A DNA stretch of 52,140 bases from Deltaproteobacteria bacterium. Lineage in GTDB: Bacteria; Desulfobacterota; Dissulfuribacteria; Dissulfuribacterales; UBA3076. A program made the position numbers and the translations under genes. Under the pieces are notes generated by a model, which worked only from the letters and a program-made list of their open reading frames with translations, ran no database searches and had not been told where the DNA came from. Position 1 is the stretch's first letter. Each line of letters starts with the position of its first letter. Of the stretch, positions 26,369 to 36,269 are shown piece after piece. The stretch covers positions 1-52,140 of the forward strand of contig JAGYNZ010000020.1 of the NCBI GenBank assembly GCA_018399745.1, in the 5' to 3' direction.

Positions 26369-26860
26369 ATGAAAAAGACGCGGATATTGAAGAATGAATG
26401 GCCGAGTTTTGTCAAAGATTTTAATAGTCAAAATCAGTTCAGAAGGGCCACTCTGACCTTGGGAGAAGACGCAGTAATTGGAGAACCCGGTTTGCCGCTG
26501 GTTGGACTGTCCTATGATGAAGAGGAACGAAAATTAGATGTCTATCTGGGATGCCTGGATACTAAAAATCTGGCACATTTAAGCCATAGTGTCGAAGTCC
26601 CCAGGGCCGTTTATCTTATCACTGACCAAGAGGCCCCTAATCCCGTAATCGGAGCGCAGATCCAGGGATCTCCGGGGACAGGAATGGCTTATTTGATTTT
26701 TAAAGATGAGAGGCCTGAAAATGTAAGATGCCAGTGGATAGCCAACGTGGCTTATAGCCTTTTTGAAATAAGGGGTGGAAAAATCCATGGCGAAGACCAG
26801 AAAGACTGGTATGATGCCGAGAGGCTGGTAGATGAGACTACTACGCCTTTTGTGGGGTGA
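26369..26860 (+). CDS. DUF5335-like protein upstream of YcaO
   Basis: 163 aa, soluble, no signal peptide. The opening MKKTRILKNEWPSFVKDFNSQ and the alternating pattern of short beta-strands (PLVGLSYDEEERKLDVYLG) resemble the small DUF5335 family; I am moderately sure of this. The start follows GCGGAGG. Its stop overlaps the GTG start of the YcaO gene, so both are translated together. Function is unknown; the tight coupling suggests an accessory or substrate-presenting role for the YcaO protein. Confidence 0.7.
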   Translation: MKKTRILKNEWPSFVKDFNSQNQFRRATLTLGEDAVIGEPGLPLVGLSYDEEERKLDVYLGCLDTKNLAHLSHSVEVPRAVYLITDQEAPNPVIGAQIQGSPGTGMAYLIFKDERPENVRCQWIANVAYSLFEIRGGKIHGEDQKDWYDAERLVDETTTPFVG

Positions 26861-28620
26861 GTCTCTTCAGAAGCTATCAGATCATGGGTTTTTTAAAAGA
26901 CAGTTTCAAGGGGTCGGACACTGCGTTTGATAAAGCAAGGCCGGCGGATGAGACCTTGAAATGGGTTCGGAACCGGTTTAGCAGACTGGGAATGCCTATT
27001 ATCCAGAATACCGAACGTGTAGATAAGGGCAGGCTCGGGATACCGGTATATGTGAGCAGATATAGTCCGTCCATCAGTCATCTCACCGGTACGCCGATGC
27101 AGATGGGTAAGGGTGCTACTCCAGCCCAGGCAGAGGCAAGTGCTGTAATGGAGCTGGTAGAACGCTTCAGCCTTTTTAACTTCGTAAAAGAAAGGAAACA
27201 CCGTTTTTGCAGGCGCATGGATTTTGAGACGGGCGCAGTCTCTTTGGAAGACATGCTTAGGGCTCTGCATCTTAAAGACCAAAGCGAGGAGGCTGTCTCG
27301 AAGGCCGGCGGATTGATCGAGACCCTGACTTTTAATTGGGTAAGGGCCTTTTGCCCTGCGGGTGGAGAAGAGTTTTGGCTCCCGTTATCGTGGTTTTGGC
27401 CCTTAAACGAGTATAATGGTTCAGCCTCTGGAAATTCATTTGAAGAGGCGGCCGTACAGGCCCTTTCAGAGGTAGTTGAACGTCACGTTTGTTCCATTAT
27501 TACCCATAAAAGACTATCTACTCCGACCATAGAACCTGATAGCATCAAGGATCCCGTTGCCAGAGAACTTTTGGCAAAATTTCAGCGCCTGAATATAGAG
27601 CTTGTGCTGAAGGACTTTTCTCTGGATCTCGGTATCCCCACGGTTGGAGCCATTGCGTGGGATCCGTCGACTTTTCCAGCCAGTAGCGAGATAGTTTATA
27701 CTGCAGGGACAGCACCTGATCCTCAGCGGGCCGTAATAAGGGCACTTACAGAGGTGGCACAACTGGCGGGAGACTTCGATAGAGAAGGTAGATATGTTGA
27801 GAGTGGATTGCCTAAATTTTCCAGTCTGGACGAGGCTTCATATGTGCTTGATGAGAATGTCCGGGTCTGTTTGGAATCAATGCCGAATTGTTGCTCAGAA
27901 AATTTCAGACTCGAGGTCGAAAGGCTGTGCCGGGCACTGTCTGATGTCGGCTTAAAGGCATATCTGGTTGATATCACACACCCTGAGTTGGGAGTCCCTG
28001 CAGTCTATGCGATAGTATCCGGGAATCACTTCCGGGACCGAGCCAGAAATCTTGATGTGGCATTCCATTGTGCCCGACTGGTTGACTCCGTTGAACGCCC
28101 ACAAAAAGCACTATCTATCCTGAAGGCGATGGATGATCTGTATTCAGAACGTTACGATATAGCCTTTTATACGGGACATGCACATGAAAGGCTTGGGGAT
28201 TATGCAGAGGCGCTAAAATGGTATGACAGGGCATTTATGCTCAATCCTTTATCCGATGAGGTGGCAAGCATTTATTGCCACCGTGGAGCGTGTTATAAGG
28301 AATTGGAGGATTTTAACAAGGCCATAGAGGAGCTTGTCCTTGCAAGAGATTCAAATCCGGAACTGAAAGAAATCCATAATCTTCTGGGATACTGCTTTTA
28401 TCGTTTAGGAGAACATGTCAAGGCCATAGAGGCCTTTGAACAGACAATATCTATCGACCCCGGATCTGCAATAGATTATGCCAATATAGCCAGCAACCTC
28501 CGAGAATTGGACATGAAGGATGCGGCAATCAAGTGGTATGAGATGGCCCTTGAGTTAGATCCGGACCTCAGCTGGGCCAGAGATAAGATGAGGGAGCTCC
28601 AGTTTATCTCTCAGGATTAA
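26857..28620 (+). CDS. YcaO-domain protein with C-terminal TPR repeats
   Basis: 587 aa from GTG 26857; ATG 26884 is a possible later start. The YcaO domain (about residues 70-400) carries the ATP-binding helices AEASAVMELVERFS and EAAVQALSEVVERH, both with the E-x-x-ER/Q type ATP/Mg motif, and RAVIRALTEVAQLAGDF. YcaO enzymes activate a backbone amide with ATP to form azolines or thioamides. The C-terminal 160 residues are about four TPR repeats (for example GHAHERLGDYAEALKWYDRAFMLNP) instead of a proline-rich tail, and should bind a protein partner. dsrC lies 300 nt downstream. No TfuA and no RiPP precursor is visible, so the target is unknown; the location suggests a role in sulfur metabolism. 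Confidence 0.88.
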   Translation: MSLFRSYQIMGFLKDSFKGSDTAFDKARPADETLKWVRNRFSRLGMPIIQNTERVDKGRLGIPVYVSRYSPSISHLTGTPMQMGKGATPAQAEASAVMELVERFSLFNFVKERKHRFCRRMDFETGAVSLEDMLRALHLKDQSEEAVSKAGGLIETLTFNWVRAFCPAGGEEFWLPLSWFWPLNEYNGSASGNSFEEAAVQALSEVVERHVCSIITHKRLSTPTIEPDSIKDPVARELLAKFQRLNIELVLKDFSLDLGIPTVGAIAWDPSTFPASSEIVYTAGTAPDPQRAVIRALTEVAQLAGDFDREGRYVESGLPKFSSLDEASYVLDENVRVCLESMPNCCSENFRLEVERLCRALSDVGLKAYLVDITHPELGVPAVYAIVSGNHFRDRARNLDVAFHCARLVDSVERPQKALSILKAMDDLYSERYDIAFYTGHAHERLGDYAEALKWYDRAFMLNPLSDEVASIYCHRGACYKELEDFNKAIEELVLARDSNPELKEIHNLLGYCFYRLGEHVKAIEAFEQTISIDPGSAIDYANIASNLRELDMKDAAIKWYEMALELDPDLSWARDKMRELQFISQD

Positions 28621-28921: not shown

Positions 28922-29242
28922 ATGGCAGAACTTGAATTTGGAGGGGAGACATTCGAGATTGACGAGGACGGTTTTCTTTTGGGGGGCATTGATTCCTGGA
29001 ACCGGACATGGGTGGACTATGTGAAATCGACTGAGGGTATTGACGAATTAACTGAAGAACACTGGAAGCTTGTAAATGTTCTACAGGACTATTACAAAAA
29101 GAACGGTATTGCACCCATGGTACGTATCCTCTCGAAGGCAACCGGTTTTCCCTTAAAGAAGGTCTATGAACTATTCCCATCCGGCCCAGGAAAGGGAGCC
29201 TGTAAGATGGCTGGCCTTCCGAAGCCGACTGGTTGTGTCTAG
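28922..29242 (+). CDS. dsrC: Dissimilatory sulfite reductase-associated protein DsrC
   Basis: 106 aa, the standard length of DsrC/TusE. The C-terminal arm has both functional cysteines, Cys94 and Cys105 (GACKMAGLPKPTGC), ten residues between them. True DsrC uses both to carry sulfur as a trisulfide between DsrAB sulfite reductase and membrane DsrMKJOP, whereas TusE-like relatives often keep only the last one. IDELTEEHWKLV and GIAPMVRILSKATGFPLKK are family signatures. The gene has its own promoter and a hairpin terminator, as expected for a very abundant protein, and is not beside dsrAB here. This is the strongest metabolic marker in the window. Confidence 0.96.
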   Translation: MAELEFGGETFEIDEDGFLLGGIDSWNRTWVDYVKSTEGIDELTEEHWKLVNVLQDYYKKNGIAPMVRILSKATGFPLKKVYELFPSGPGKGACKMAGLPKPTGCV

Positions 29243-31274: not shown

Positions 31275-32075
31275 ATGATAGGCAAACAGGTCAGGCTGGA
31301 AAGAATCATTAATCGCAACACAGGGAGGACAATAATCGTCCCTATGGATCACGGCGTAAGCGTGGGGCCTATAGAGGGTGTAATTAACATGAAGACTACT
31401 ATTGACAAAGTGGCAACAGGCGGCGCCAATGCCATCCTGATCCACAAGGGTATTGTGCGGGAAGGACATCGTGGAGAAGGAAAAGACGTGGGGATGATCG
31501 TACATCTTTCTGCGAGCACATCGCTTACCACAAGACCTAACAGAAAGACCCTGGTGTGCAGTGTGGAAGAGGCCATAAAGTTGGGAGCTGATGGAGTATC
31601 GGTTCATGTAAACATAGGAAGCGGTATGGAAAGTGATATGCTCTATGATCTTGGGGCAATCTCCGAATCTGCTATGGAGTGGGGAATGCCTCTCCTTGCA
31701 ATGGTCTATCCAAGGGGAGAGAAGATCAAAGATGAACATGACGTAGCCGTAGTAAAACATGCAGCAAGGCTTGGGGCTGAACTAGGGGCTGATATTGTAA
31801 AAGTCAATTATACCGGAACTCCAGAGACTTTCAGAGAGGTTGTGGAGGGGTGTCCGGTGCCGGTAGTGATAGCAGGTGGCCCAAAAATGGACTCAGACAG
31901 AGACGTTCTGACAATGGTAAAAGATGCCGTTGATGTGGGCGGGGCCGGGGTTTCTATCGGGAGGAATGTCTTCCAGCACAAGGATCCTACCAGCATAGTA
32001 AAGGCCTTTGACTTGATTATTCATCAGAATGCGTCGGTTGACGATGCCGTCGATCTCTTAAGAGGAGAAGAATAA
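31275..32075 (+). CDS. aroA': 2-amino-3,7-dideoxy-D-threo-hept-6-ulosonate synthase
   Basis: 266 aa, a class I aldolase of the DeoC/FbaB-like family. The Schiff-base Lys is Lys176 in [14 protein letters not shown] (23-27) is the substrate-binding start and MVYPRGE carries the catalytic Tyr. In archaea and many Desulfobacterota this enzyme condenses 6-deoxy-5-ketofructose-1-phosphate with aspartate semialdehyde to ADH, replacing DAHP synthase in the shikimate pathway. A GGGGGAGAGGG precedes the ATG. It overlaps the class II 3-dehydroquinate synthase gene (TAATG), which settles its role better than sequence alone, since class I FBP aldolases look alike. Confidence 0.9.
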
Positions 32076-33067
32076 TGAAAGAGGTTTGGGTAAAGGCTGA
32101 ACCCTGGAACAAAAAGCTGGTTACAACCGCTCTGGAAAGCGGGGCGGATGCAGTTATGGTGCCTGAAAAATATACGGCCAAGGTAAAAGAGCTTGGTATT
32201 ATCCGCACTATCTCCAAAGATGGAGACCTTAAATATGGTCGGGATATAGTCGAATATGAGATCAAAAGCGGCAAAGATGAAAAAGAGATTGTAAAACTTG
32301 CCAAGACCAAAAAGGTTATTGTGAAGACAACTGATTGGACGATTATACCGCTGGAAAACCTTATTGCTCAGACAGGCAATCTATACGCAGAGGCAAAAAC
32401 TTTGTCTGAGGCAAAGGACTTTCTTTCCATACTCGAAAAAGGCGTGGACGGTGTCCTGGTAGCGACAAATGACATAAATGAATTAAAGAAGATCATCCGT
32501 GAAGTCAAGAGTGCAGGAGAGATGATTCCCTTGGTTACGGCAAAGATCCTGGGCGCCAAGTCCCTCGATATGGGAGACAGAGTCTGCGTTGACACCTGTA
32601 CGTCAATGCATATGGGAGAAGGTATGCTCATAGGGAACTCCAGCGCTGCCATGTTTCTGGTGCATTCTGAAAGCATTGAAAATCCATATGTCGCTCCCCG
32701 TCCTTTTCGTGTAAACGCCGGTCCTGTGCATGCATACATCCGGGTGAGCGAAGGCAAAACAAAATATCTGTCTGATCTTAAGGCGGGTAACGACGTGCTT
32801 ATAGTCGACTTTAATGGAAAGGCCAAAAGGGCCGTTGTGGGAAGGCTGAAAATAGAAAAGCGCCCCCTTATGCTGGTCGAGGCGGAAATCGACGGGGCTG
32901 TGATATCGACCATTCTCCAAAATGCGGAGACTATCCGCCTCACAAAACCCGACGGATCACCGATTTCGATAGTCAGCCTGAAAAAGGGAGATGAGGTGCT
33001 TGTGGCTGTCGAAAAAGCTGGAAGACACTTTGGCATGAAGATCGAAGAGACGATAGTGGAAAAGTGA
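32075..33067 (+). CDS. aroB': 3-dehydroquinate synthase II
   Basis: 330 aa. It converts ADH to 3-dehydroquinate by oxidative deamination and cyclisation with NAD+. Family signatures include EVWVKAEPWNKK at the start, KKVIVKTTDWTIIPLENLIAQ, and the long conserved block MGDRVCVDTCTSMHMGEGML with SENP-like and RPFRVNAGPVHAY sequences. It is unrelated to normal AroB. It follows the ADH synthase with one shared nucleotide, so the pair forms the archaeal-type entry into the shikimate pathway. Confidence 0.95.
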   Translation: MKEVWVKAEPWNKKLVTTALESGADAVMVPEKYTAKVKELGIIRTISKDGDLKYGRDIVEYEIKSGKDEKEIVKLAKTKKVIVKTTDWTIIPLENLIAQTGNLYAEAKTLSEAKDFLSILEKGVDGVLVATNDINELKKIIREVKSAGEMIPLVTAKILGAKSLDMGDRVCVDTCTSMHMGEGMLIGNSSAAMFLVHSESIENPYVAPRPFRVNAGPVHAYIRVSEGKTKYLSDLKAGNDVLIVDFNGKAKRAVVGRLKIEKRPLMLVEAEIDGAVISTILQNAETIRLTKPDGSPISIVSLKKGDEVLVAVEKAGRHFGMKIEETIVEK

Positions 33068-33180: not shown

Positions 33181-33960
33181 TCACCATGTGCGAGATATGG
33201 ACTTAACGAAGGCTGTCTCCATAGCCTTTATTCGTTCTTGATATTCCGGCCCGGAGATTTTGGCGCCTTTTAGGCCTCCTCTGAGGTTTATTTCACCGAA
33301 ATAAGTGGTACCGTCCTCAGTAACCATTAAATCTATATGGGCATTGGGGAATTTTCCCCTCTGCATTACATTTTGGCAGAGATCCCACTGCTCAGATGAA
33401 AGCCTTTGCTCACCACTATTCCCACCGCAAAACATGTTATTACGAAATGAGTGGGGGTTGCTTCGCCAATACGACTCAGAATAATCTCCTATTATTATGA
33501 CCCTCACATCGATCGCCGCCTTTACAAAGGGTTGTATTACAAAAGGATATTCAAGAGAGCCAAAACATACCTGATTATAGGCCTCTTCAATTGACGACCA
33601 CAGGTGTATACCAAGGCCGCAATTAAAACGATTTTGTTTTGTTACCACTGATCCTATTTTTTCGCGCCCATAGATATTTATTTGTTTAATCATGTCATGG
33701 CGGTCTCTGGCCACAAAGGTATGGGGCACCATCCACTTTTTGTAGACAAGTGCCTGCAGACACTTTGATCTGCTGAGTTGCTGCGCTAAAGCTGGCGGAA
33801 ATAAACGGATACCTCGTTCTACAAGATCCAGAAACAGGACTTGCTCTGTGGGCTTGATGTTTAATAATCCGACCACCGTGTCTCCAGAACCGAGTTCTGA
33901 AAGATGTGTTCTAAAAGAGCGGTTGTCTGTGAGGACCAGTGGAGGTCGGCCGAGATTCAA
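33181..33960 (-). CDS. ATP-grasp ligase (RimK/LysX-like)
   Basis: 259 aa. The start is TTG 33960: an in-frame TAA lies a few codons upstream and no ATG occurs before the core, while GGAG inside the previous gene gives a ribosome site. Residues about 85-130 form the ATP-binding strand pair (GSVVTKQNRFNCGLGIH), FVIQPFVKAAIDVRVIIIGD is the middle strand of the fold, and FGEINLRGGLKGA carries the metal-binding Glu and Asn. The ATP-grasp family forms amide or thioester bonds by acyl phosphate. It shares 4 nt with the upstream zinc-ribbon gene, so the small protein is a natural candidate substrate or carrier. The substrate is not known. Confidence 0.83.
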   Translation of the reverse strand: MNLGRPPLVLTDNRSFRTHLSELGSGDTVVGLLNIKPTEQVLFLDLVERGIRLFPPALAQQLSRSKCLQALVYKKWMVPHTFVARDRHDMIKQINIYGREKIGSVVTKQNRFNCGLGIHLWSSIEEAYNQVCFGSLEYPFVIQPFVKAAIDVRVIIIGDYSESYWRSNPHSFRNNMFCGGNSGEQRLSSEQWDLCQNVMQRGKFPNAHIDLMVTEDGTTYFGEINLRGGLKGAKISGPEYQERIKAMETAFVKSISRTW

Positions 33961-34256
33961 AAAAGCATCTCCAAGAATCTGTTATGAAATTCGCTTAGAT
34001 CTGCCTGGCACTCCCCACAGTAAAGTTTTACTTCTCCAAGGATTCTGGAGTCATCGTTAAGGGGGGTAAAGCTTCCGTCGGCATTTTGTATATACCGCGT
34101 GGTTAGTTTAACTTCCTCTGCTATTTGGTAAAAGTTCCATTCGTTTCCACAGTGTGGACAAATTATACGGCGACCCAGATGCGGGTTCATCTGGGTATAT
34201 TTAGAACCGGCTTTAGCCTTTTGCGTGCGCTTGCTTTTGGAAATTATCGCGGTCAT
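33957..34256 (-). CDS. Small zinc-ribbon protein coupled to ATP-grasp gene
   Basis: 99 aa. Cys33-P-H-Cys36 and Cys80-G-E-Cys83 form one CxxC/CxxC zinc ribbon; between them lies a 43-residue loop with LTTRYIQNADGSFTPLNDD. The N-terminus is lysine-rich and disordered (SKSKRTQKAKAGSK); the C-terminus ends FHNRFLEMLF without the acidic EDWGE tail of LysW. ATG 34256 follows AAGGAGT by 13 nt. The stop lies inside the start region of the ATP-grasp gene. Possible roles are an amino-group carrier, a peptide substrate of the ligase, or a regulator. None can be proved from sequence. Confidence 0.75.
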   Translation of the reverse strand: MTAIISKSKRTQKAKAGSKYTQMNPHLGRRIICPHCGNEWNFYQIAEEVKLTTRYIQNADGSFTPLNDDSRILGEVKLYCGECQADLSEFHNRFLEMLF

Positions 34257-34583
34257 GTTTTATATAGTACTCCTTTATAATGTTCGGTCTGAACATTGAT
34301 ATGTTTGCGAGGTCAACGGCCAAAATAACCAGTTAACCTCGATTCTGCGAGTATGTGCCCTTGAGGCGCTAATTCATATGTAAAAAATATGAGAATGAGG
34401 AGCTGACTAAAGATCTTTGATAATATTATCATAATTGTTTAATATAAAGTCCTGCAAGAGAAAAATCTACTATTTCGTGAGTCTCTGCGACACAAATTAT
34501 TTGCAGTGCCTGTGTATATGACTTAAAGTTCCAAGGTTAGTTAAATCCAGAAAAAAAATAGTATGGGGTGAGGAGGGTCTAGG
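34257..34583. other. Divergent intergenic region, zinc-ribbon pair and isomerase
   Basis: 327 nt between leftward and rightward genes. It contains the palindrome at 34280, a minus-strand ribosome site AAGGAGT near 34269-34275, and AT-rich sequence around 34400-34450. A strong AGGAGG at 34571-34576 serves the GTG start at 34584. No tRNA or ORF was seen. Confidence 0.5.
34280..34296. promoter_or_regulatory. Operator-like palindrome ATGTTC-N5-GAACAT
   Basis: Two perfect 6-bp arms, ATGTTC and GAACAT, separated by GGTCT. On the minus strand it lies directly upstream of an ATTATAAA stretch that could be the -10 of the zinc-ribbon/ATP-grasp unit, 24-40 nt before the start codon. Its place suggests a repressor site. 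No matching regulator gene is adjacent. Confidence 0.4.
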
Positions 34584-36269
34584 GTGTTTCATCGTCCATC
34601 ATATCTATCAAGTGTTGAAAAAGAGGCATTCATTTCACGTTTCTGGAAAAAAGATCCGTCTATTTGGGCCAGAGACAGGGAAATTCAAGAGCAGATCACA
34701 AATCGTCTTGGGTGGTTGGATGTTATTCCAAAAATGAGAGAAGCCCAGGCGGAAATAGAGGGTTTCGCACAAGCTGTGAGACAGCGAGGCATTAAACGGA
34801 TAGTGCTTCTCGGCATGGGGGGATCCAGTCTCTGCCCTCTGATTTTAAGTCAGGTCTTCGGGTCTAAAGAAGGTTTTCCCATATTAAAGGTCCTGGACAC
34901 GACCGATCCAGATGAGGTAGCGCTTGTTGCCACAAGCGGAGACTGGAAAACGACACTCTTTTTAGTGGCCAGCAAATCCGGTACTACGCTGGAACCAAGT
35001 GCCCTGTTTAATTACTTCTGGCCGTTGCTTGAAAACGAGTTATCTGACCCTGGTTTGCATTTTGTGGCTATCACAGACCAGGGAACTCCCTTGGCGGATT
35101 TGGGAAATGATCGAGGCTTTTTAAAGGTTTTTCTTAATCCTTCTGATATAGGAGGAAGATATTCAGCACTTTCTTACTTCGGCCTGGTCCCGGCGGCTTT
35201 GATCGGGGTGGATATTGACCGGCTCCTTCGAAGGGCTGAGGATATGGTCAGCAAGTGCGGTCCGGATATGCCATTGGATACAAATCCAGGCTACAGACTT
35301 GGTGAATTCTTGGGAGAATTCGGGGTTCAAAGCAGGGACAAATTGACTATCCTTACTGATTCATCCATTAAGCCCTTTGGCCTTTGGTTGGAGCAGCTTG
35401 TGGCAGAGAGTACCGGCAAAGAGACCAGGGGTCTGGTACCCATTATTGGCGAATCCACCGGGATTCCAGGATTTTATGGCGGAGAACGTATTTTTGTTTA
35501 CCTGAGGATTAAAGAGAACCCGGCTGAGGATTCTTTGCAAGATTTTGTGTCAGAGCTACGTAGGTCTGATTTTCCAGTCTACGAGTTGTGGATAGAAGAT
35601 TTGTATGACTTGGGAGCCCAGTTTTTCCTCTGGGAAATGGCTACCGCCCTGGTCTCCTATTTTCTGGGTGTTAATCCTTTTGATGAACCGGATGTCCGAC
35701 TTTCAAAAGAAAAGACCGGGGCAATTCTTGATGTCTATCGAGTTGAAGGCAAGATGCCTGTAAAATTTTGGGTAGATCCAAATAGTCAGATCCATTTTCG
35801 GGCTTCAGAGATGCTGGCCGCGTCCATGAAGAGTCTGCCCAGGGCAATAAGAGACATATTTCATGTCTTGCCGACTTGGGGCTATTTGGCATTTCTCCCT
35901 TATCTCCCCTATGACCCTGAGATGGAAGACGTAATAGGGAAAATGCGGTATCTTGTGAGAGAGGCGAAGGGGTGCGCTACGACCATGGGCCATGGTCCGA
36001 GGTATCTCCATTCAACCGGCCAGATTTACAAAGGTGGCCCCAGTTCCGCGGCTTTTTTGATGTTTACTCGAAGAAGGGCAAAGGACTATCCGGAGATCCC
36101 GGATTTAGGTGTTTCTTTCTGGCACATCCAGTTTGCCCAGGCGGTTGGAGACTTCGAGGCCCTTTCCGATGGAAGACTCAGAGCTATTCATGTGCATCTG
36201 CCCTCTGATTACCTGATGGGGTTAAAGGATTTTAGCAAAGTCCTTTCAAGATCAATTGGCATGAAGTAG
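34584..36269 (+). CDS. pgi: Glucose-6-phosphate isomerase (Tal-Pgi type)
   Basis: 561 aa from GTG 34584 behind AGGAGG. It interconverts glucose-6-phosphate and fructose-6-phosphate. Sugar isomerase domains are shown by LLGMGGSSLCPLI near residue 80, ASKSGTTLEP near 135 and DIGGRYSALSYFGLVPAAL near 195; TMGHGPRYLHSTGQIYKGG near the C-terminus is the other active-site block. The sequence type is that of the isomerase half of transaldolase/isomerase fusions, but there is no transaldolase part. It stands alone in its transcription unit. Confidence 0.9.
   Translation: MFHRPSYLSSVEKEAFISRFWKKDPSIWARDREIQEQITNRLGWLDVIPKMREAQAEIEGFAQAVRQRGIKRIVLLGMGGSSLCPLILSQVFGSKEGFPILKVLDTTDPDEVALVATSGDWKTTLFLVASKSGTTLEPSALFNYFWPLLENELSDPGLHFVAITDQGTPLADLGNDRGFLKVFLNPSDIGGRYSALSYFGLVPAALIGVDIDRLLRRAEDMVSKCGPDMPLDTNPGYRLGEFLGEFGVQSRDKLTILTDSSIKPFGLWLEQLVAESTGKETRGLVPIIGESTGIPGFYGGERIFVYLRIKENPAEDSLQDFVSELRRSDFPVYELWIEDLYDLGAQFFLWEMATALVSYFLGVNPFDEPDVRLSKEKTGAILDVYRVEGKMPVKFWVDPNSQIHFRASEMLAASMKSLPRAIRDIFHVLPTWGYLAFLPYLPYDPEMEDVIGKMRYLVREAKGCATTMGHGPRYLHSTGQIYKGGPSSAAFLMFTRRRAKDYPEIPDLGVSFWHIQFAQAVGDFEALSDGRLRAIHVHLPSDYLMGLKDFSKVLSRSIGMK

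Follow-up and report, generated by a model that had tools for sequence, protein, structure and literature searches.

A small zinc-ribbon-like protein (ZR) and a RimK-clade ATP-grasp ligase are encoded by a real, widely conserved, and undescribed gene pair, and neither protein scores as a member of a named, characterized family. The pair lies in a 52,140-nt stretch, hereafter the window, of contig JAGYNZ010000020.1 from Deltaproteobacteria bacterium GCA_018399745.1, a sulfate-reducer-type host. Both open reading frames were confirmed at the positions given in the preliminary description of this DNA, as was the 4-nt sequence, TTGA, that is shared by the ZR stop and the ligase start (Table 1). 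Among congeners, ZR is 81–96% identical and the ligase 85–95% identical, and homologues are recognizable throughout the order, which identifies the two as genuine genes. Of the 60 nearest genomes, 38 have ZR and 44 have the ligase, and the usual order is ZR followed by the ligase with a gap of −64 to +24 nt, most commonly −4. Natural ZR–ligase fusions were considered and rejected, as the long ZR frames at several loci (L170, L177, and others) are read-through without protein-like sequence. Plasmid spread of the ligase was likewise rejected, as a tblastn search of a plasmid collection with the ligase gave no match.

Table 1. Positions of the gene pair and surrounding features in the window
Feature	Position	Strand	Remarks
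YcaO domain fused to TPR repeats	26857-28620	+	Adjoins dsrC
dsrC	28922-29242	+	106 aa; C-terminal CKMAGLPKPTGCV; PF04358, 116.6 bits
ADH synthase and 3-dehydroquinate synthase II	31275-33067	+	Archaeal-type early shikimate steps; between the ligase and the dsrC side
RimK-clade ATP-grasp ligase	33181-33960	-	259 aa; TTG start; PF08443 match
ZR	33957-34256	-	99 aa; zinc-ribbon-like; C33xxC36 and C80xxC83; invariant QNxDGSF hairpin; C-terminal EMLF
Palindrome AATGTTC-N5-GAACATT	34279-34297		Exact; upstream of ZR; single copy in the whole genome
PEBP (PF01161) gene remnant	34316-34435	-	By tblastn; middle deleted, with the signal-peptide portion at the N terminus and the final 16 codons left
Phosphoglucose-isomerase-like protein	34584-36269	+	561 aa

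Of 395 Desulfobacterota genomes, 66 carry ZR and 62 carry the ligase; the two genes occur together in 53, ZR alone in 13, and the ligase alone in 9. At the genus level the corresponding numbers are 28, 5, and 7, with 206 genera carrying neither (p = 2e-25), and the association is also seen among dsrA-bearing genera (p = 2e-15) and families (p = 4e-8), none of these values being fully phylogeny-corrected. In 39 of the 53 genomes with both, ZR immediately precedes the ligase on the same strand, and in the remaining 14, which come from two families, the two genes are unlinked. The immediate arrangement recurs in about 14 families while the outer neighbors vary by lineage: PEBP, acylphosphatase-like, M48-peptidase-like, or other genes are found upstream, and an FG-GAP protein, dsrC, or RNase III–Era–LpxC downstream. 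The neighborhood survey that the preliminary description had proposed as a check therefore finds the relatives co-located and the coupling not accidental, since the pair holds together over these families while its flanks change, and its two genes co-occur throughout the phylum. Several of the genomes compared are incomplete bins, and some ZR-less loci (e.g., G009, G011, and G016) lie in them. A separate scan, covering named genomes, returned 183 relatives, of which 80, mostly from records labelled Deltaproteobacteria or Thermodesulfobacteriota, were kept; besides a SeepSRB2 bin that is close to the window, these include Desulfocapsa, Desulfurivibrio, and Desulfobacca, and the ligase is downstream of ZR in 52 of the 80 loci.

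All four cysteines of ZR are invariant among the homologues compared, and the long loop between the two cysteine pairs that had been noted earlier amounts to 43 residues. The predicted structure comprises a four-stranded sheet and a C-terminal helix, with a mean pLDDT above 90 over residues 31–90. A fold search with this model returned no meaningful solved match (best VIA Z of 4.3), and none of the curated profile families was reached by the sequence; the score against the LysW profile TIGR01206 is 14.0 bits (cut-off 53.2), and the best score of that profile anywhere in the whole genome is 16.1 bits. The C terminus reads M-[L/I]-F-COOH exactly in 80 of the 80 kept loci and is never extended.

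The ligase matches PF08443 with 42.8 bits (Pfam gathering cut-off 21), and its scores against the RimK subfamily TIGR00768 (39.1 bits; cut-off 143.4) and LysX/ArgX TIGR02144 (18.1 bits; cut-off 275.6) fall below the respective cut-offs. It is far under all NCBIfam subfamily and equivalog cut-offs, among them those for the RimK family, LysX, MptN, CofF, GAK, and glutathione synthase. A firm grouping with a known small-molecule ligase, which according to the preliminary description would deprive the coupling of special meaning, was thus not found. The ligase model has a pLDDT of 93.4, and its nearest folds, RimK and ArgX/LysX, are tied (ArgX 3vpb: VIA Z 17.8, rmsd 3.8, 238 residues aligned; RimK 7qys: VIA Z 17.1, rmsd 4.1, 235 residues aligned). 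RimK, ArgX, and LysX are all among the closest folds, with Foldseek E of about 1e-12 and VIA Z of about 16–18, and synapsin falls in the same Z range. The model has the ATP-grasp fold, and the catalytic residues are kept among 92 ZR-linked members, the conserved residues being K108, D151, R153, R166, R173, N175, D210, and E223.

In terms of known systems, LysW is defined by a C-terminal EDWGE whose terminal Glu is the acceptor, and its cognate ligases carry a GSWGR motif (PMC10433800). As in LysW/LysX and ArgW/ArgX, a small CxxC/CxxC protein with an invariant C terminus stands here beside an ATP-grasp ligase of the same fold. Unlike those proteins, ZR ends in M-[L/I]-F, the stretch between its Cys pairs is far longer than in LysW, and a search of the ligase sequence for GSWGR found the motif absent. 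The preliminary description had already remarked on the missing acidic tail and on the lack of lysine or arginine biosynthesis genes near the pair, and both remarks hold: EDWGE is absent from the ZR sequence, and inspection of 20 kb revealed no lys/arg genes. RimK, the ribosomal protein S6 glutamate ligase, is the closest relative of the ligase by sequence and has conserved DxR, FRxN...GG, and D...ExN residues in common with it, whereas the ligase is shorter and paired with ZR. The GAK-system, MptN, CofF, and GshB ATP-grasp ligases belong to the same superfamily and give weak profile matches, and their partner genes were not recognized near the pair. A search of one literature collection returned nothing joining an ATP-grasp protein with a zinc ribbon in sulfate reducers.

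The two genes differ further from LysW/LysX and ArgW/ArgX in that each also persists alone. The ligase is absent genome-wide from 23 of the 27 ZR-bearing genomes in which no ligase is adjacent, so that the cognate ligase expected of a LysW is missing from these genomes, and all 23 retain the ZR sequence and its M-[L/I]-F tail; in an additional ligase-free family, f25, the protein ends in EMSF or EMVF. In another family, f39, 11 of 11 ZR proteins lack the tail despite an adjacent ligase. The alignment columns with 97% conservation among the 92 ZR-linked members each show at least 80% agreement in the ligases from 12 loci without a detected ZR. This mismatch of tail and ligase, together with the retention of ligase residues where ZR is absent, makes the conserved features of each protein independent of the other. 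The ZR tail, which its invariance in 80 loci had made a promising ligation site, was rejected as such on the evidence of the ligase-free genomes and f39.

Upstream of ZR, the palindrome described earlier as operator-like is indeed an exact repeat, but only one near-copy was found among the congeners and the others are without it; as it is not retained, there is no evidence of a conserved operator, and we rejected this assignment. Intact PEBP genes precede the pair in congeners and directly precede the ligase in several ZR-free genomes. The shikimate genes appear to be a recent insertion, as their placement between the ligase and the dsrC side is restricted to the window and two congeners. The 561-aa phosphoglucose-isomerase-like protein is similar to bifunctional transaldolase/glucose-6-phosphate isomerase over the C-terminal half of the latter only (570.8 bits; cut-off 712). 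In one genus (L089, L079, L099, and relatives), the pair is followed in the same direction by genes for RNase III, an Era-like GTPase, and LpxC, a context that is a possible hint at ribosome maturation.

We interpret the pair, tentatively and with slightly less than even confidence, as a two-gene module, conserved among dsr-bearing Desulfobacterota, in which a RimK-type ligase acts on a third substrate and ZR is a mechanistically separable partner in the same process. Judging from its RimK/LysX fold and retained residues, the ligase would be an active RimK-type amino-acid ligase that uses ATP to activate a carboxylate for coupling to an amine. This carboxylate would most likely belong to a protein or peptide, though not to ZR. 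ZR, in turn, would be a stand-alone predicted zinc-binding protein with a conserved job of its own, which possibly docks on or regulates the ligase or acts in the same pathway. The gene structure, the co-inheritance, the conserved order of the genes, the intact ATP-grasp residues, and the mutual independence of the conserved features are observed, whereas we infer the ligase chemistry, a common process, and a third substrate.

Co-inheritance could come in part from shared ancestry and operon retention, and the genes might be merely co-transcribed, with an ordinary small-molecule ligase and an unrelated ZR joined by ancestry. The persistence of each gene alone is consistent with such an account, as is the location of the unlinked ligase among housekeeping genes (pyruvate:ferredoxin oxidoreductase-like, phosphoribosyltransferase, purD, and Sua5), yet we consider it rather unlikely, given the strong genus- and family-level co-occurrence, which includes the two families with unlinked genes, and the lack of any above-cut-off match of the ligase to curated small-molecule ligases. 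The preliminary description had instead proposed a carrier-protein or peptide-tailing system, in which ZR would be a LysW-like carrier or substrate and the ligase would add an amino acid to a ZR carboxylate, located either at the C-terminal Phe or on a conserved acidic side chain. The tight operon with ZR first, a ligase fold equally close to RimK and to ArgX, which was solved with LysW, and the unextended, invariant ZR C terminus all point in this direction; that C terminus, however, is as invariant in ligase-free genomes and is missing in f39 beside an adjacent ligase, the ligase residues are conserved where ZR is absent, neither EDWGE nor GSWGR is present, and none of the downstream pathway genes able to use a carrier were seen. 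Because each gene also persists alone across genomes, these comparisons suggest that ZR is probably not simply the carrier of the ligase; a carrier role is possible, but it has become the less likely reading and we regard it as unlikely.

A connection with dissimilatory sulfite reductase also has to be weighed. In the window, dsrC is convergent with the ligase at a distance of about 4 kb, and of 124 neighborhoods, 50 have a true dsrC with both C-terminal cysteines no more than four genes away from the pair, a count reached by no other gene and spread over several lineages. Moreover, dsrA is present in 65 of the 66 genomes with ZR and 61 of the 62 with the ligase, compared with 190 of 395 overall. 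These observations are consistent with a module that services the Dsr system, e.g., through action of the ligase or ZR on DsrC or another Dsr component, but ZR is found in only about 17 of 55 dsrA-bearing families, and the convergent dsrC is not co-transcribed. Since the dsrA and dsrC links may partly reflect clade history, and since ligA and acylphosphatase-like genes are also retained as conserved neighbors, which weakens the linkage to dsrC as proof of function, the sulfur link is suggestive only, and we judge a service to Dsr improbable. More improbable still is the specific proposal that the ligase, with help from ZR, would add amino acids C-terminally to a Dsr-linked protein, for instance DsrC, and so tune dissimilatory sulfur metabolism; if true, DsrC-type tailing would be an undescribed protein-modification module of sulfite-reductase-bearing bacteria. 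A search of the same literature collection returned nothing joining dsrC with an ATP-grasp protein, and the dsr papers searched make no mention of such genes. The YcaO–TPR protein is kept beside dsrC across the order (18 loci) and may have a sulfur-related role, which is putative.

The pair, which we take to be separable partners in one process, ties two uncharacterized families to each other and to dsr-bearing lineages, including SeepSRB2-type bacteria. The comparative data reveal which partner can be lost and convert a vague analogy with LysW into testable predictions, which concern the target of the ligase in ZR-free strains and the role of the M-[L/I]-F tail in ligase-free strains.
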